Origin: Thermoleophilaceae bacterium
Lineage (GTDB): Bacteria; Actinomycetota; Thermoleophilia; Solirubrobacterales; Thermoleophilaceae
Assembly: GCA_030446485.1 (NCBI GenBank)
Contig: JAUJNF010000004.1
Coordinates: forward strand, 62,001 to 126,000
DNA: 64,000 nt
Reading direction: 5' to 3'
Shown here: one piece after another, positions 39,225-48,835 of the stretch
Layout: each line of letters begins with the position of its first letter
Numbering within the stretch: position 1 is the stretch's first letter
Program-made: the position numbers and the translations under genes
Notes under the pieces: generated by a model
Databases searched by the model: none
What the model was told of the DNA's origin: nothing
What the model saw: only the letters and a program-made list of their open reading frames with translations

Positions 39225-39863
39225 TCAGAGCACGTAGATGGAGGCATAAACGAGGATCCACATGATGTCGACGAAGTGCCAATAGATCCCCGGCACCTCC
39301 ACCCCCCGATGGTCCTTCGGCGTGAAGTGCCCCCGAAAGGCCCGCACGGTGGCGAACAGCAACAACGTCAAGCCAACGAACACGTGGGCGCCGTGCAGGC
39401 CCGTCAGCCCGTAGAAGATCGACCCCTGCGCGTGGTCGCCCGGTGCGAAGCCGATGTGCACGTACTCGTTGACCTGAATGGCGAGGAACGTCGCGCCCAG
39501 CAGGAACGTGGTGAGCAGCCCGGCGCGCAGCCCCGCCCGGTTCTCGTTCTTGGCCGATTCGAGCGCCCAGTGCATCGTGAAGCTCGAGGAGATGAGGATC
39601 GCCGTGTTCACGCCGGCCACTGCCACCGGCAGGTGCGTGCCCTCCGCCGGCCACGCCTCGTTCGCCACACCCCGGATGAAGAAGTACGCGGTGAAGAACG
39701 CTCCGAAGAGCATGATCTCCGAGATGATGAAGAGCAGCATCCCGAGGAACTGCGCATCTACGCGCGAGGAGCGGTTGGCCTCGGGCGGACCGTGGTGATC
39801 GTGGGTGACCGGCTTCTCGCCGGGCTCGAGCCGCGCCGGGAACGAGACGGAGGCCGACTCCAT
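39225..39863 (-). CDS. ctaE: Cytochrome c oxidase subunit III
   Basis: 212 residues with five or so TM helices. Conserved features are FIISEIMLFGAFFTAYFFIR, a mid-protein LAIQVNEYVH, FYGLTGLHGAHVFVGLTLLL and the C-terminal YWHFVDIMWILVYASIYVL. It is the last structural gene of the ctaC-ctaD-USP-ctaE operon and overlaps the USP gene by ATGA. Confidence 0.94.
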   Translation of the reverse strand: MESASVSFPARLEPGEKPVTHDHHGPPEANRSSRVDAQFLGMLLFIISEIMLFGAFFTAYFFIRGVANEAWPAEGTHLPVAVAGVNTAILISSSFTMHWALESAKNENRAGLRAGLLTTFLLGATFLAIQVNEYVHIGFAPGDHAQGSIFYGLTGLHGAHVFVGLTLLLFATVRAFRGHFTPKDHRGVEVPGIYWHFVDIMWILVYASIYVL

Positions 39864-40735
39864 CAGGCGCCCGCCTGCGTGGGCACGCCCCTACGGGCCT
39901 CCGCCGGCTCGACCACCACGTGCTCGACGGGCTTGGCGGTATAGGAGCGGACGCGCTCGATCAGGTCGCCTCGCATCCAGCCGGAACGGGTGGCCGGGAA
40001 GGTCGAGATCACGATCTCGTCGATCGTGTAGTGCTGCAGGGCGTTCCTGATCGCCGTGTACGGGTCGGTGTCCATGATCTGCCCGGAAGCCTCGAGGCCC
40101 TCCGCCGTGAGCCGCTCGAGCGTGGTGGCCAGGCGCTGCGTTGGGTCGGTGGCCCCCTTCCCGCCCCGGGGACAGATCACCACGAAGCTCCGCGGCGACT
40201 GGTCGGCTTTGTCCCTCAGCAGGTGTATCAGGGACTCGCCAGCCACCGTCTCATTGGCCACGACCAGCGTGTTGGTCACCTCGTCCTTGTCGGCCTCGAG
40301 GTCCACCACCACGTGGTCCACCGGCACGCCGGTGTCCTGGCGCACGCGCTCGATCAGGTCGCGCCGCATCCAGCCGGAGCGCGTCGCGGGGTGGGTGGAG
40401 ATGATGATGCAGTCGGCCCCGTAGGCGGCCACGGCGTCGGTGGTGGCCGAGTAGGGGTCGGGGTCCATCACGGCCCCGGTGGCGAGGATGCCCACGGCCC
40501 GCAGCTGGGCGAGCGTGGTGGTCAGGCGGTTCTCCGCCGCCTTCAGGGAGTTGTCGTCGTAGATGACGTAGCCCTCGCGCGGCCTGTTCTGCGGGCAGAT
40601 GACCGTGACGGCGAACGGTCGTCCCTCGGCGTGCGCCTCCTCGGCCTTCTTCCTGACCTCGTCGATCAGCGCCCGTCCGCCGACCGTCTCGTTGGCCACC
40701 ACGAGTATCCGGAAGGGCTGCGGCCGCGTGGTCAC
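39863..40735 (-). CDS. Tandem USP-like protein inside the oxidase operon
   Basis: 290 residues made of two homologous halves. Each starts with LVVANETV (ILVVANETVGGRALIDE; TLVVANETVAGESLIHL), contains a VICP segment and D(P/T)DPY, and ends with TRSGWMR-DLIERVR then VxHVVV. The Rossmann-like pattern resembles the universal stress protein superfamily, but the ATP-binding G-x2-G-x9-GS motif is not evident. GTG start overlaps the ctaD stop (GTGA), and its stop overlaps ctaE, so it is co-translated with both. Role unknown; oxidase assembly or stress sensing are possibilities. Confidence 0.8.
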   Translation of the reverse strand: MTTRPQPFRILVVANETVGGRALIDEVRKKAEEAHAEGRPFAVTVICPQNRPREGYVIYDDNSLKAAENRLTTTLAQLRAVGILATGAVMDPDPYSATTDAVAAYGADCIIISTHPATRSGWMRRDLIERVRQDTGVPVDHVVVDLEADKDEVTNTLVVANETVAGESLIHLLRDKADQSPRSFVVICPRGGKGATDPTQRLATTLERLTAEGLEASGQIMDTDPYTAIRNALQHYTIDEIVISTFPATRSGWMRGDLIERVRSYTAKPVEHVVVEPAEARRGVPTQAGA

Positions 40736-42630
40736 TCGTGCGCGACCCCCGACGTCCCGGCGGGCACGGGCTCCTTCTCCCGATCCTTGAACACGCCGTG
40801 CACCGCGCCCGGCACGCCGTACTCGTACGGTCCGCCGACCACGGTGGGGATGTCGTCGAAGTTGAACAGCGGCGGCGGTGAGGACACCTGCCACTCGAGG
40901 GTGTGCGCACGCCAGGGGTTGGCGGCGGCACGGGGCCCGTTGCGCCAGCTCGTGACCATGTTGTAGAGGAAGATCAGGAAGCTCAGGCCGAACAGGAAGC
41001 TCGAGACCGAGATGATCGCGTTCAGCGACGCGAACTGGTCGGCGTAGTCCGCCACGCGCCGCGGCATGCCGTCGATCCCGACGAAGTGCATCGGCCCGAA
41101 GGTGAGGTTGAAGAAGACGAAGGAGAGCCAGAAGTGGATCTTCCCGAGCGTCTCGTCGTACATGCGCCCGGTCATCTTGGGGAACCAGAAGTAGAGCCCT
41201 GCGAAGATCGTGAACACGCTGCCGCCGAACAGCACGTAGTGGATGTGGGCCACCACGAAGTACGTGTCGGAGACATGGATGACCACCGGCAGGATGGCCA
41301 GCACGATGCCGCTGATGCCGCCGAGCGTGAACATCGTGATGAAGCCGAGCGCGAAGAGCATCGGCGTGGTGAGATGGATCACCCCTCGCCACAGGGTGGC
41401 GAGCCACGAGAAGATCTTGATGCCGGTGGGCACCGCGATCAGCATGGTCGTGATCATCATCGGCACGCGCAGCCAGGAGAACATGCCGGAGACGAACATG
41501 TGGTGCGCCCAGACCGTGAAGCCGAGGATCACGATGGCCACCAGCGAGAAGGCCATCATCCGGTAGCCGAACACCGGCTTGCGGGCGTTGGCCGAGATCA
41601 CCTCGCTGACGATGCCGAACCCGGGCAGCATCATGATGTAAACGGCCGGGTGCGAGTAGAACCAGAAGATGTGCTGGTACATGACCACGTCGCCGCCGCC
41701 GCCGGGGTTGAAGAAGTGCGTCCCGAGCGCGCGGTCGAACAGCACGAGGAACTGCGAGCCGGCGATGAACGGCGTGGCGATCACCACGAGCAGCGAGGTG
41801 GTGAAGTTCGCCCACACGAGCAGGGGCATGCGGAAGAAGGTGAGCCCTGGGGCCCGCATGGTGATGATCGTCACCAGGAAGTTGAGCGCGGTGGCGATCG
41901 ACGAGGCGCCGGCGAACTGGACGGCGATCGTGAAGAAGGTCTGCCCGACCGGCATCTCGGTGGAGAGCGGCGCGTACGCCGTCCAGCCGGTCGCGAACGC
42001 GCCGCCGGGGGCCAGGAAGCTCGCGGTCATCATCACCCCGGCCACCGGGAGCATCCAGAACGACAGCGCGTTCAGGCGCGGGAAGGCCATGTCCGGCGCC
42101 CCGATCATCAGCGGGATCACGTAGTTGGCGATGCCGGCGAACACCGGGATGATGAACAGGAAGATCATCAGCGAGGCGTGCACCGAGAACAGCCCGTTGT
42201 AGGTGTTCGGGTCCACGAACTGGGTGCCCGGCGCCGCCAGCTCGGCGCGGATGAGCATGGCCATCAGCCCGCCGAGGACGAAGAAGACGAACGTGGTGAC
42301 GATGTACTGGATGCCGATCACCTTGTGATCGGTGTTGACGCGGAAGTAGTCCCGCCAGGACCGTGCGCCGTGCCCGGAGTGGTCGTCGGGCACGGTCGGC
42401 GCGCCCGAGGCCCACCGGAACCAGTAGTCGAAGCAGCCGATCCCGAGGAGGAACGCGACACCCATGGAGATGAGCGCCACGGTGGTGATGGCCTCGCCGT
42501 CGACGAGCGGCTCGTAGCCGTAGAGGGCGCGCACGAGCACGACCAACCCGAAGGCGAACAGGGCGCCGGCGAGGACGCTGAGCGCGGCGCGGTACCAGCC
42601 GGGCGCGGTGAGTCGAGCGGTCATCGTCAT
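40732..42630 (-). CDS. ctaD: Cytochrome c oxidase subunit I (A2-type) with N-terminal two-TM extension
   Basis: Haem-copper oxidase catalytic subunit, 632 residues from ATG 42630. Ligand positions are visible: haem a His in LFSVHASLMIFLF, CuB and Tyr in FYSHPAVYIMMLPGFG, His pair in WAHHMF, haem His in VVAHIHYVLFGG. YSHPAVY is the A2-subclass motif, replacing the GHPEVY Glu of A1 enzymes. Before the usual start (SWRDYFRVNTDHKVIG) is an extension of about 100 residues with two TM helices (LSVLAGALFAFGLVVLVRAL and ITTVALISMGVAFLLGIGCF), perhaps a fused small subunit. Confidence 0.95.
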   Translation of the reverse strand: MTMTARLTAPGWYRAALSVLAGALFAFGLVVLVRALYGYEPLVDGEAITTVALISMGVAFLLGIGCFDYWFRWASGAPTVPDDHSGHGARSWRDYFRVNTDHKVIGIQYIVTTFVFFVLGGLMAMLIRAELAAPGTQFVDPNTYNGLFSVHASLMIFLFIIPVFAGIANYVIPLMIGAPDMAFPRLNALSFWMLPVAGVMMTASFLAPGGAFATGWTAYAPLSTEMPVGQTFFTIAVQFAGASSIATALNFLVTIITMRAPGLTFFRMPLLVWANFTTSLLVVIATPFIAGSQFLVLFDRALGTHFFNPGGGGDVVMYQHIFWFYSHPAVYIMMLPGFGIVSEVISANARKPVFGYRMMAFSLVAIVILGFTVWAHHMFVSGMFSWLRVPMMITTMLIAVPTGIKIFSWLATLWRGVIHLTTPMLFALGFITMFTLGGISGIVLAILPVVIHVSDTYFVVAHIHYVLFGGSVFTIFAGLYFWFPKMTGRMYDETLGKIHFWLSFVFFNLTFGPMHFVGIDGMPRRVADYADQFASLNAIISVSSFLFGLSFLIFLYNMVTSWRNGPRAAANPWRAHTLEWQVSSPPPLFNFDDIPTVVGGPYEYGVPGAVHGVFKDREKEPVPAGTSGVAHE

Positions 42631-43611: not shown

Positions 43612-44007
43612 TCAGGCGGCCAGCGACCGTCCGACGGGCGGGGCGGCTCGCGGGGCGAAGTCCTCGCGACGGCGGAAGTTGGACGGCGGCGCTCCGTGGT
43701 GGCGACGAAAGGCCTTCGCGAACTGCGCGGGCTGGCGATACCCGACGCTGACCGCCACCTCGCGCACCGGGGACGAGCCGTCCTGAAGCAGGCGCAGCGC
43801 ATTGCGCATGCGCACCTCGGCGACGTACCCGCGGAAGCTCGTGCCCCCGACTTCGGCGAAGGCGCGCTGCAGCTGCCGCCTCGAGGTAGCGATCTGCCGT
43901 GCCACCCCTTCGAGGTCGAGCACGCGGTCGAAGTCGCGCTCGATGATCGCCGCGGCTTCCTCGTAGAGCGCCTGGCGGCGGTGAATGGTGCCCTCGCGCT
44001 TGGCCAC
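43612..44007 (-). CDS. Stand-alone AraC-type DNA-binding protein
   Basis: 131 residues containing only the two-HTH AraC/XylS domain: LEGVARQIATSRRQLQRAFA, then VREVAVSVGYRQPAQFAKAF and RRHHGAPPSNFRR. There is no ligand-binding domain. GTG start. It is divergent from the diiron protein gene, with about 50-115 bases between, which suggests that it controls that locus. Confidence 0.85.
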   Translation of the reverse strand: MAKREGTIHRRQALYEEAAAIIERDFDRVLDLEGVARQIATSRRQLQRAFAEVGGTSFRGYVAEVRMRNALRLLQDGSSPVREVAVSVGYRQPAQFAKAFRRHHGAPPSNFRRREDFAPRAAPPVGRSLAA

Positions 44008-44123
44008 GTGTATGTATACGGACGCGCGCGCCTTCCGGATCGAAGACGAACCCGCGGATGAGATGGTTCGCCGCGGCGCCGGAAGGTCCCCAAACGGCGT
44101 TTAACCCCCACGCCCCCCGGGGG

Positions 44124-45137
44124 ATGCCCCTCTCGAGCGTGCGCCTGCCCGAACCCCGTGGAAACCTGAGCGAGTACCTCTTCGACCGGCTCTCGGCGCC
44201 GCCTGAGGCGCTGGTCGATCCGCCGCGCGCGGGCGATGACGTCCTTGCCGGCGAGGACTTTCAGCTCGCCCTGTACGCCTGCTACGAGCTGCACTACCGC
44301 TCTTTCGACGATGTGGCCGACGACTGGGAGTGGGAGCCGTCGCTGCTCGCCTTCCGGGCGGGCCTCGAGCGAGCCTTCGAGCGGCGTCTCCGGGAGGCGT
44401 CGGGCCCGGATGCCGCCCCCAGAGACGACACCGCCGCCGCGCTGTTCGCGCTGATCGCGGCAGCCGACGGACCGTCGGTCTCGCGCTTCCTCGAGACCCG
44501 CGGAACCCTGGACCACTTCCGGGAGCTCGCCGTACACCGGTCCGCCTACCAGCTCAAGGAGGCCGATCCCCATTCGTGGGCGATCCCGAGGCTCACGGGA
44601 CCGGCCAAGGTGGCGCTCGTCGAGATCCAGGCCGACGAGTACGGCGGCGGCCGAGCCGACCGGCTCCACTCCCAGCTCTTCGCAAACACGATGGAGGCCC
44701 TGGGCCTCGAGGGCAGGTACGGCGCCTACCTCGACCACATCCCGGGTAGCACCCTCGCCACGGTCAACGTCATGTCGCTGTTCGGCCTCCATCGGCGCCT
44801 CCGCGGCGCGATCGTCGGACATCTCGCGGCGGTCGAGATCGACTCGTCGGTGCCGAACCGGCGCTACGCCAACGGCCTGCGGCGCCTGGGGCTGTCCGGC
44901 GCGGCGACCGATTTCTACGACGAGCACGTCGAGGCCGATGCCGTGCACGAGAACCTGGCGGCGCACGACCTGGCCGGTTCCCTGGCCCGGGACCAGCCCG
45001 AGCTGGCCGGGGACATCCTGTTCGGCGCCCGCGCCATGCTGCTGCTGGACGAGCCGGTAACCGCGCGGATGCTCGACCGCTGGAGCCAGGGCCGGACCTC
45101 GCTCCTGCGCCCACTGGGCGCGCCGGTCGCCGTTTGA
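44124..45137 (+). CDS. Haem-oxygenase-like diiron protein (iron-containing redox enzyme family)
   Basis: 337 residues from ATG 44124 (ATG 44058 would add 22). All-helical pattern with candidate metal residues in YACYELHYRSFDDVADDWEW, FRELAVHRSAYQLKEADPHS and VALVEIQADEYGGGRADRLH: Glu/His spacing typical of haem-oxygenase-like di-iron oxidases, a group that includes CADD, BesC, UndA and SznF. A second conserved helix is FYDEHVEADAVHENLAAHDL. Substrate unknown. The downstream glycosyltransferase is coupled by TTGA, and a CDGSH Fe-S protein and methyltransferase are close. Confidence 0.8.
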   Translation: MPLSSVRLPEPRGNLSEYLFDRLSAPPEALVDPPRAGDDVLAGEDFQLALYACYELHYRSFDDVADDWEWEPSLLAFRAGLERAFERRLREASGPDAAPRDDTAAALFALIAAADGPSVSRFLETRGTLDHFRELAVHRSAYQLKEADPHSWAIPRLTGPAKVALVEIQADEYGGGRADRLHSQLFANTMEALGLEGRYGAYLDHIPGSTLATVNVMSLFGLHRRLRGAIVGHLAAVEIDSSVPNRRYANGLRRLGLSGAATDFYDEHVEADAVHENLAAHDLAGSLARDQPELAGDILFGARAMLLLDEPVTARMLDRWSQGRTSLLRPLGAPVAV

Positions 45138-46111
45138 GCGGCGAGCGGCTCGCCGCCACCTACGTGCTCCCGATCCGCTGGGAGGAGGACGAGGGCCTCG
45201 GCGAGCTCAGCGCCTACCTGCGCTGGGTGGCCGAGCGCATGGAGCTCGTGGTGGTGGACGGGTCGCCGCCGGCGGCCTTCGAGCGCCACGCCTCAGCCTG
45301 GGGTTCGTTCGCGAAGCACGTGCCTCCCGACAGCGAGCTGCGCTTTGCGTACCGCAAGGTGAACGGCGTGGTCACCGGGCTGGCGACCGCCGGCCACGAC
45401 CGCGTGATCCTGGCCGACGACGACGTGCGCTACGGCGAGGCGGAGCTGCGCCGGATGGCGAGCCTGCTGGACGAGGCCGACTGCGTCGCGCCCCAGAACT
45501 TCTTCGACCCGGCTCCCTGGCACGCACGCTGGGACACCGCCCGCAGCCTCCTGAACCGGGCGATCGGCGGCGACTACCCCGGCACGCTGGGGGTACGGCG
45601 GTCGCGGCTCCCCGGCGGGCGCTACGACGGCGACGTGCTGTTCGAGAACCTCGAGCTGATGCGAACGGTGGAGGCCGCCGGCGGCACGGTGGCACGCCCC
45701 CTCGACCTGTTCGTGCGCCGCCTTCCGCCCTCCGCGGGGCACTTCTGGTCCCAGCGGGTGCGCCAGGCCTATGACGACTTCGCGCTTCCGGCGCGGATGG
45801 CGCTGTGGCTCGCGCTGGGACCGGCGGTCGTGCTGATGCTCGCCCGCCGTCGCTGGGGGGTCCTGGTGGGCGCCGGGGTGGCCTCGATGGCGGTGGCGGA
45901 GCTCGGCCGCGTCCGCGCGGGCGGCACGCGCGTCTTCCCCGCCGGGGCGTCGGCCTTCGCACCGGCCTGGCTGCTGGAGCGGGCCGTGACCTCGTGGCTG
46001 GCCGTCTGGTCGCGCCTGCGGCACGGGGGCGTGCGCTACGGCGACATGCTGATCGCGCGGGCGGCCACGCCTCCCGGCGAGCTCAGGAAGCGCTTCGGGA
46101 CGGCGCCGTGA
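45134..46111 (+). CDS. GT2-like glycosyltransferase with C-terminal membrane segment
   Basis: 325 residues from a TTG that overlaps the diiron gene stop. N-terminal GT-A part: TYVLPIRWEEDEG, MELVVVDGSPPA and DRVILADDDVRYGEAELRRM, where LADDDV resembles the metal-binding DxD. The C-terminal third has hydrophobic helices (MALWLALGPAVVLMLARRRW; VLVGAGVASMAVAELG). It is unusual to find such an enzyme coupled to a diiron protein; acceptor unknown. Confidence 0.75.
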   Translation: MSGERLAATYVLPIRWEEDEGLGELSAYLRWVAERMELVVVDGSPPAAFERHASAWGSFAKHVPPDSELRFAYRKVNGVVTGLATAGHDRVILADDDVRYGEAELRRMASLLDEADCVAPQNFFDPAPWHARWDTARSLLNRAIGGDYPGTLGVRRSRLPGGRYDGDVLFENLELMRTVEAAGGTVARPLDLFVRRLPPSAGHFWSQRVRQAYDDFALPARMALWLALGPAVVLMLARRRWGVLVGAGVASMAVAELGRVRAGGTRVFPAGASAFAPAWLLERAVTSWLAVWSRLRHGGVRYGDMLIARAATPPGELRKRFGTAP

Positions 46112-46122
46112 GGCCGCCCGGC

Positions 46123-46383
46123 CTAGCGGTCGCCCTCGGCGCCGCCCTCCGCCCTGAAGCCGATCAGCTTGTGCGTGCCGTCGCAGAACGGCCGGATCTG
46201 CGACTTGCCGCACCGGCACAGGGCGACGGTCTTCCTGCGAGCGTCGATCTCGCGACCGTCCTGGTCGACGATCCTGAACGGCCCCCGTACGACGTAGGGG
46301 CCGTCGCGATAGGGCGTGATCACCACCTCGGGGTCGACGGCGGGCTCGCCGGCCGTGCCACCCTCCGGCGGCTCGGGCGTCAT
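46123..46383 (-). CDS. CDGSH iron-sulphur domain protein
   Basis: 86 residues with the complete [2Fe-2S] CDGSH motif CRCGKSQIRPFCDGTH (three Cys, one His). An N-terminal strand region (YRDGPYVVRGPFRIVDQDGR) precedes it. It lies on the opposite strand between the glycosyltransferase and the methyltransferase. The conserved motif indicates redox or cluster-transfer function; partnership with the diiron enzyme is inferred from location. Confidence 0.92.
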   Translation of the reverse strand: MTPEPPEGGTAGEPAVDPEVVITPYRDGPYVVRGPFRIVDQDGREIDARRKTVALCRCGKSQIRPFCDGTHKLIGFRAEGGAEGDR

Positions 46384-46403
46384 CGGTCCACCGCCGCAGC
46401 CAC

Positions 46404-47147
46404 GTGAGCGCAGCGGACCACGATCCGACCGCCTACGGGCGCGGGGTCGCCGACGCCTACGACGAGCTCTACGCGGCGATTCCCGACACCGACGAGGCGG
46501 TTTCGTGCCTCGCCGGCCTCGCCGGGCCGGGCCCGGTGCTCGAGCTCGGAGTCGGCACCGGCCGCCTCGCGCTGCCGCTCGCCCGCCGCGGCCTGCGCGT
46601 CCACGGGATGGACTCCTCGCCGGAGATGGTGGAGCTGCTGCGCGCGAAGGCCCCCGAGGGGGACGGCATCGAGGTGGTGGTGGGCGACTTCGCCGAGACG
46701 GTCCTCGGTGAGCGCTTCACGCTCGTCGTGCTGGCCATCAACACGATCTTCGCGCTGCCCGACCAGGGCGCGCAGGTGCGCTGCTTCCGGAACGCGGCTG
46801 CGCACCTGGAGCCCGGCGGCGTGTTCGTGGTGGAGGCCTACGTGCTCGACCCGGCCGCCCTGCGCGACGGGCCGACGGTGCAGCCGCGCTTCGTCGACGA
46901 CGGCCACGTGGAGCTGCAGGTGGCGAGCTACGACGCGGCCACCCAGCGCATGCAGAGGACGCTCGTGCACCTGCGCGAGGGCGGGATCAGGCTGGTGCCG
47001 GTCAACGACCGCTACGCCTCGCCCGCCGAGCTCAACCTGATGGCGCAGATGGCCGGCCTGCGCCTGCGCGAGCGCTGGGGCGACTGGAGCCGCCGGGCGT
47101 TCGACGGCTCGAGTCGCCGGCACGTCTCGGTGTACGAGCGGCCCTGA
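46404..47147 (+). CDS. SAM-dependent class I methyltransferase
   Basis: 247 residues from GTG. SAM motif I VLELGVGTGRLALPLARRG, motif II VHGMDSSPEMVELLRAKAP and post-motif LVVLAINTIFALPDQGAQ are clear. The C-terminal half is a beta-rich cap. It is divergent from the CDGSH gene by 20 bases. The substrate may be a small molecule made in this locus; that is inference. Confidence 0.88.
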   Translation: MSAADHDPTAYGRGVADAYDELYAAIPDTDEAVSCLAGLAGPGPVLELGVGTGRLALPLARRGLRVHGMDSSPEMVELLRAKAPEGDGIEVVVGDFAETVLGERFTLVVLAINTIFALPDQGAQVRCFRNAAAHLEPGGVFVVEAYVLDPAALRDGPTVQPRFVDDGHVELQVASYDAATQRMQRTLVHLREGGIRLVPVNDRYASPAELNLMAQMAGLRLRERWGDWSRRAFDGSSRRHVSVYERP

Positions 47148-47847: not shown

Positions 47848-48645
47848 CTACCCGAGCCGACGGGCGCCGCGGTGCCTGGCGGGGCGGTGGAAATCCCCGC
47901 CGCACTCCCGCCACACCCCGCGCCGCGCGCCGCGCGCCCGCCGCTCGGCGCGCCGGTAGCGCCGCTCCGCGGTCAGCCGCCCGCCGGAGGCGGCGAAGCG
48001 GGCCCACCCGCGCGAGAGTTGGGTGGCCGCCAGGTCGCCGCCGCCACGGACCCGCGCGTAGGCCAGAAGGCGACCGCCCCGGTCGAAGAGCGGCTGCGAG
48101 GCGTCCGTCGTGAGGGTCACGCGTCGCTCGCGACTGCCGTGCCCGTCGAAGAACCCGTCTCCGTCCGAGTCACGCAGGTGCCTGAAGCTGAGCCGCGCCA
48201 GCGACGCGGTGGCCTGAGCGCCGCCACAGTGACCGATGCGCCGGGGCGTCGCGGGCCGCGGCGTGTCGAGGCCAAGCAGCCGCACGGTGTAGTAGGGCCG
48301 CTGCGCACCGAAGGCGCGCACCCGGAGCGTGTTGCCGCTGAAGACCTTCAGCGTCTTGGCCTCGATCTTCTGCACGGGCCCGTCCCCGCCCCCGTCGGGC
48401 TCGCTGCGCTTGCTGCACGGGCAGGGCAGGGACTCGCAGGCCACGCCGTTGCCGTCCGAGTCGAGACTGTCCGGGTCCTCGTCCGGGCCGCCACGCTCGA
48501 GGAAGTAGTCCTGGGCCGCCTTCTGCGAGCCGAAGTCGCTGCAGTTCCTGTCGTCGGCAGGCGCCGCGGAGGCCACCTCCGCTCCCACGTCACCGCACAC
48601 CGCCATTGCCGCGACCGCCGCAGCCACTGTCCCGAACGCCCTCAT
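47848..48645 (-). CDS. Secreted Excalibur plus degenerate thermonuclease-like protein
   Basis: 265 residues with a strong GGAGG ribosome-binding site. It has a signal peptide (to about residue 29), then an Excalibur calcium-binding domain (NCSDFGSQKAAQDYF ... DPDSLDSDGNGVACESLPC, about 33-75), then a staphylococcal-nuclease-like OB fold from about 98 (LKVFSGNTLRVRAF, YYTVRLLGLDTPR, GRLLAYARV). Against nuclease numbering, the Ca ligands D19 and D21 are Ser103 and Asn105 and the catalytic Glu43 is Arg130, while the R35 (Arg122) and D40 (Asp127) equivalents are kept. It may be inactive or altered. Confidence 0.82.
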   Translation of the reverse strand: MRAFGTVAAAVAAMAVCGDVGAEVASAAPADDRNCSDFGSQKAAQDYFLERGGPDEDPDSLDSDGNGVACESLPCPCSKRSEPDGGGDGPVQKIEAKTLKVFSGNTLRVRAFGAQRPYYTVRLLGLDTPRPATPRRIGHCGGAQATASLARLSFRHLRDSDGDGFFDGHGSRERRVTLTTDASQPLFDRGGRLLAYARVRGGGDLAATQLSRGWARFAASGGRLTAERRYRRAERRARGARRGVWRECGGDFHRPARHRGARRLG

Positions 48646-48835
48646 GTCGACCTCCTCCACGGCAGCGCCGTGCTCGCTCCGGTCGCACCGATGGCGACCT
48701 CTGAGCGACGAAGAGAGGGCGACGGGCGATTCGCCCCCCTGGGTCACACGCCGCGCAGGGCTCCGCCGTCCAGCGCGGCCCGCGCCGGAGCCTGGAGCCA
48801 CGCCAGATCGGCGTCCAGCTCGGCCCGATGGTGCG

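Follow-up and report, generated by a model that had tools for sequence, protein, structure and literature searches.

A heme-oxygenase-like dimetal oxygenase (HDO) and a CDGSH [2Fe-2S] protein are encoded close together in a 64,000-nt stretch of DNA from a Thermoleophilaceae soil bacterium (the window), and we find that this pair is a real, conserved module of the Actinomycetota that no paper in the searchable literature describes. In an unbiased test set of 150 actinomycetote genomes, 28 carried the HDO; excluding the window's own genome, a CDGSH gene lay within 1.5 kb of it in 18 of 27, which extends across the phylum the adjacency that the original prediction had pointed out in the window. 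These 27 genomes encode 34 CDGSH domains, and 19 of these have an HDO no more than 1.5 kb away, where 0.04 would be expected. We also assembled 108 loci, comprising the 80 closest to the window HDO (the best of at least 558 relatives from a scan of GTDB genomes, all 80 of them in Actinomycetota) and 28 from an even sample of the phylum, with loci at contig ends included. A strict CDGSH motif was present within 2.6 kb of the HDO at 73 of these loci and was its most frequent neighbour. The two proteins are thus almost certainly functionally linked, and no account of the pairing was found in open-licence papers when CDGSH was searched for together with HDO, N-oxygenase, diiron or Streptomyces.

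The window locus (positions 43612–47147) contains five genes (Table 1), all of them intact and situated where they had first been proposed. The HDO and the membrane glycosyltransferase had been described as co-translated, in agreement with the overlap of the TTG start of the latter with the HDO stop codon (TTGA, 45134–45137). The locus is as compact as had been claimed, with only 20 bp between the divergent starts of the CDGSH and methyltransferase genes, but it does not form a single operon given that the CDGSH gene is on the opposite strand. Relatives of the HDO start near Met23, and its true start may therefore be the ATG at 44124 rather than 44058. The host genome bin is 2.6 Mb and 76% complete. 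Cytochrome oxidase genes flank the locus and were rejected as partners, a match being found near only one of the 80 closest loci. Two further features of the flanks were noted by eye and are listed in Table 1.

Table 1 Coordinates of the window genes and of other loci referred to in the text.
Feature	Location	Strand	Remarks
Two tandem similar universal-stress-like halves	window 39863–40930	-	behind the cytochrome oxidase subunit I gene; by eye
AraC-type DNA-binding protein	window 43612–44007	-	131 aa; HTH_18 only; probably a bystander
HDO	window 44058–45137	+	PF14518, E=2.2e-58
Membrane-associated GT2-type glycosyltransferase	window 45134–46111	+	TTG start
CDGSH [2Fe-2S] protein	window 46123–46383	-	single domain; PF09360, E=6.5e-21
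CcbJ-like class I N-methyltransferase	window 46404–47147	+	accessory
Thermonuclease-like domain joined to Excalibur-like calcium-binding motif	window 47848–48801	-	by eye
Second, weaker PF14518 match (L005)	G000:C20:2266-2631		window's genome; 36 bits
Two tandem CDGSH genes (L123)	G000:C22:13700-16200		window's genome; another subtype
Kitasatospora plasmid copy	L120:1-7942
SznF-like HDO-cupin/Rieske overlap	L133:4515-6262		plasmid record
SznF-like HDO-cupin/Rieske overlap	L136:2932-4655		plasmid record
SznF-like HDO-cupin/Rieske overlap	L137:2968-4742		plasmid record
SznF-like HDO-cupin/Rieske overlap	L138:2932-4633		plasmid record
Sphingobium plasmid pKN1 locus	L135:1-5498

Sequence and predicted structure together identify the window protein as a genuine HDO. 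It has the three-histidine, three-carboxylate ligand set of the superfamily; the predicted diiron ligands (E168, E194, H204, H290, D294 and H297) do not vary among 34 relatives that are approximately 53–62% identical, and they align at identical spacing with SznF residues 189, 215, 225, 311, 315 and 318, which we take to be the diiron ligands of SznF. E260, also invariant in the 34 relatives, aligns with SznF position 281 and is a candidate for the extra glutamate, or fourth carboxylate, that an auxiliary helix supplies in a 3H/4C site of the SznF type; enzymes of that type have an additional glutamate ligand (PMC13108848). An AF2 model (pLDDT 89, pTM 0.87) has the heme-oxygenase-like helical fold, and a Foldseek search with this model returned HDOs as its top matches, HrmI, SznF and RohS ranking first. 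The closest solved relatives by sequence are the same three proteins (SznF at E=5e-9), all of them N-oxygenases. The original prediction of a haem-oxygenase-like diiron protein thereby passed the structural check proposed for it, all ligands being present in a confident model that resembles N-oxygenases. That the enzyme itself oxygenates a nitrogen substrate is, on these resemblances, about as likely as not. It is not an SznF, as it lacks a cupin domain: its chain ends after the HDO domain, and PF14518 is its sole domain match. SznF itself (the streptozotocin N-oxygenase, PDB 6VZY/6M9R) has a C-terminal cupin domain, and the putative partner in its clade is a Rieske rather than a CDGSH protein. 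Moreover, H172, W174 and R178 are invariant in the window HDO family and differ in SznF in the same alignment, which leaves room for a different substrate or even another type of reaction. HrmI and RohS give the best or near-best fold matches (TM 0.63–0.69), at 17–19% identity over the structural alignment. The two belong to antibiotic pathways, where their substrates are lysine or 2-aminoimidazole, and we know of no CDGSH partner for either. A second, weaker PF14518 match is found elsewhere in the window's genome.

The window CDGSH protein carries the CDGSH/NEET motif C-x-C-x2-S-x3-P-x-C-D-G-[ST]-H (CRCGKSQIRPFCDGTH), with predicted ligands C56-x-C58, C67 and H71 (C67-D-G-T-H71). It falls within an HDO-linked subtype (..TVALCRCGxS..PFCDGTHK) that is coherent and separate from the other CDGSH copies of the same genomes, a grouping that is only indicative given how short these sequences are; two tandem genes of another subtype lie elsewhere in the window's genome. 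Another bacterial CDGSH/NEET protein with a single domain and the same motif (PDB 3TBM, E=1.8e-16) was solved without an assigned function, and the oxygenase linked to the window protein suggests one. The position of the CDGSH gene varies among loci, being upstream or downstream of the HDO and on the same or, in most loci, the opposite strand, but it remains close. On the Curtobacterium plasmid pW21 (L122) the two genes overlap with no other cluster gene nearby, and they overlap again, in the opposite order, in Streptomyces CA-256286. No protein fusion of HDO and CDGSH was found among the loci examined, and apparent long frames spanning both proved to be stop-free stretches in GC-rich DNA. Approximately one third of loci have no nearby CDGSH gene, including an acidimicrobial-type group (L099, L104–L107) and several with contig ends, and CDGSH is therefore not strictly required.

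The core of the system consists of the HDO and CDGSH, then the glycosyltransferase, with other partners being exchangeable. The glycosyltransferase is a complete GT2 enzyme with membrane helices at its C-terminus; it has the GT-A signature of this family (D1, DxD, catalytic acid and QxxR), its conserved motifs D42, D95-D97, E171 and Q207-R208-x-R210-Q211 (QRxRQ) are invariant, and Foldseek matched it to PcManGT (E=3e-9). A profile built from HDO-linked copies detected it in 10 of the 150 genomes at a limit of 1e-30, and in nine of these it adjoins the HDO (co-occurrence Fisher p=7e-7); no score fell between E=1e-135 and the limit, which indicates a discrete subfamily. Conserved clustering, on which the original prediction had staked its case, is therefore found both for this enzyme and for CDGSH. 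In two Microbispora species the HDO and glycosyltransferase are even fused in one frame. Across the 108 loci the glycosyltransferase occurs near the HDO at 40, and it is nearly mutually exclusive with a YbdK/GCS2 ligase (27 loci) and a HemK2-like methyltransferase (29 loci), which replace it in other lineages. As the glycosyltransferase label also changes at least four times on a quick HDO tree, the core has stayed stable while its partners were exchanged. A Kitasatospora plasmid copy encodes, consecutively, SpoIIE/STAS/CsbD stress genes, a YbdK ligase, a dimethylargininase, the HDO, CDGSH and a HemK2-like methyltransferase. By their sequence families, the ligase, the dimethylargininase and the CcbJ-like methyltransferase of the window point to amine or amino-acid chemistry.

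This methyltransferase has full-length homology to CcbJ, the celesticetin N-methyltransferase (PDB 4HGY; family profile E=5e-64), but no lincosamide genes lie near the window copy. CcbJ-like genes occur near the HDO at 17 of the 108 loci and directly beside it in Streptosporangiaceae. The family is present in 32 of the 150 genomes, and among the sampled HDO genomes it adjoins the HDO only in the window's own. Its proposed place in the locus consequently holds as a neighbour of the HDO here but not as part of the core, for which it was rejected given that the family mostly lies elsewhere in HDO genomes; it is a lineage-limited accessory. The AraC-type protein, previously put forward as the locus's own regulator, could not be upheld as a member of the system. 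A relative is found near only 3 of the 80 closest loci, at a distance of 5–8 kb, and the protein is probably a bystander.

The explanation we favour, to which we give about even chances, is that an N-oxygenase-type HDO is reduced by a dedicated CDGSH protein and plugged into varying amine-conjugation steps. The HDO would bind two irons in a site of the SznF/HrmI type, activate O2 and oxygenate a nitrogen in a substrate of the amine or amino-acid type, and CDGSH would re-reduce the diferric site between turnovers. In the window lineage the co-translated GT2 enzyme would then glycosylate the product (or the substrate) at the membrane and the CcbJ-like methyltransferase could N-methylate either, while elsewhere in Actinomycetota the partners of the same core would be a carboxylate-amine ligase of the YbdK type and a methyltransferase resembling HemK2. 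Electron transfer, N-oxygenation and the order of steps are what we infer beyond the gene pair, the predicted metal ligands, the fold class and the coupling and fusion of the glycosyltransferase, which can be read from the sequences. Several observations count against this explanation: the third of loci that lack CDGSH, the use of small reductants by other HDOs, the absence from the cluster of any gene for a CDGSH reductase, the opposite-strand position of CDGSH in the window and in most loci, and the residues H172, W174 and R178 that set the family apart from SznF.

The role of electron donor is suggested by analogy. In all four plasmid records found, admittedly a small set, SznF-like HDO-cupin genes overlap a gene for a Rieske [2Fe-2S] protein; the hosts are Azospirillum, Gloeothece, Methylobacterium and Pantoea (alpha- and gammaproteobacteria and a cyanobacterium). 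In addition, MboA-MboB is a proven case in which an HDO has its own flavin/Fe2S2 reductase; its authors (2026) regard it as perhaps the first pair of an HDO and a dedicated redox partner, and small reductants or mediators serve other HDOs in vitro (PMC13185094). The window resembles that system in that a [2Fe-2S] redox protein is genomically linked to its HDO, but MboA is a 3H/3C desaturase and MboB combines flavin and Fe2S2 (PMC13185094), whereas the window partner is a one-domain CDGSH and no flavin plus Fe2S2 reductase gene stands beside the HDO. A single ferredoxin gene at one CDGSH-less locus (L045) was not recurrent. Given the Rieske overlaps and MboA-MboB, CDGSH is best understood as a [2Fe-2S] donor, in line with the electron supply suggested in the original prediction, and we consider it fairly probable that the protein donates electrons to the HDO. 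A broader proposal is more doubtful and offered tentatively: that a phylum-wide family of diiron N-oxygenases depends on CDGSH as an obligate, dedicated redox partner, that HDOs of the SznF clade generally have a co-encoded [2Fe-2S] donor (CDGSH or Rieske), and that the product of the module is an as yet undiscovered N-oxygenated conjugate with a link to stress.

Alternative scenarios must also be considered. NEET proteins can transfer clusters or iron, and CDGSH could be a donor or maturation factor that loads or repairs a labile HDO diiron site. The gene-pair evidence fits this scenario equally, and HDO cofactors are unusually labile (PMC13108848); we nonetheless regard it as unlikely, as the SznF-like clade has a Rieske protein, an electron carrier and not an iron donor, in the same position, and MboB, the sole HDO partner that is proven, is a reductase. 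We rate as similarly unlikely a general-stress module in which HDO and CDGSH remove or sense reactive oxygen, or make a protective lipid or thiol conjugate, in the manner of DtpC. Genes for SigF/SigB-type sigma factors lie near several loci (three within approximately 5 kb in the 28-genome set), and Streptomyces and Kitasatospora copies are situated amid SigF, SpoIIE, STAS, CsbD and SRPBCC genes, but the sigma association is confined to a minority of loci and was not seen in the window. DtpC of Acinetobacter baumannii, an HDO-type protein that belongs to no classical biosynthetic cluster, is required against desiccation oxidative stress; its gene forms an operon with katE, and the paper mentions no CDGSH (PMC13232832). 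For the minority of loci concerned, these parallels suggest when the module is used rather than what it catalyses, and they are compatible with the N-oxygenase explanation.

It is considerably less probable that the locus is a small specialised-metabolite cluster for a glycosylated, N-methylated and N-oxygenated product, with CDGSH as a mere neighbour. The coupling or fusion of GT2 to the HDO and the adjacent CcbJ-like gene in Streptosporangiaceae would be expected under such a scenario; however, CDGSH is the top neighbour and is kept with the HDO where both glycosyltransferase and methyltransferase are absent, and the distribution is wide and looks vertical, not sporadic. The divergent strands and unrelated flanks could even be taken to reflect chance co-location of unrelated genes, but the excess of pairs over expectation and their proximity through repeated rearrangement leave this a negligible probability; chance is refuted for the HDO, CDGSH and glycosyltransferase, and still likely for the AraC-type gene.

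Bacterial CDGSH proteins are widespread and their role is little known, and the locus, whose HDO-CDGSH pair is present in roughly one in five of the Actinomycetota genomes sampled, offers a testable one. It also bears on the question of how HDOs are re-reduced by naming a second, structurally different HDO-redox pair, and both the compact gene pair of pW21 and the HDO-glycosyltransferase fusion would be convenient for direct biochemistry. A related prediction is that the Rieske proteins encoded next to SznF-like HDO-cupin enzymes serve these enzymes. Most of the HDO-cupin/Rieske loci have genes for an ATP-grasp ligase and a PrmA-like methyltransferase nearby and represent a recurring type of plasmid cluster. 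On the Sphingobium plasmid pKN1, genes for cyanophycin synthetase and cyanophycinase are immediately followed by those for a PF14518 enzyme and a methyltransferase of class I.
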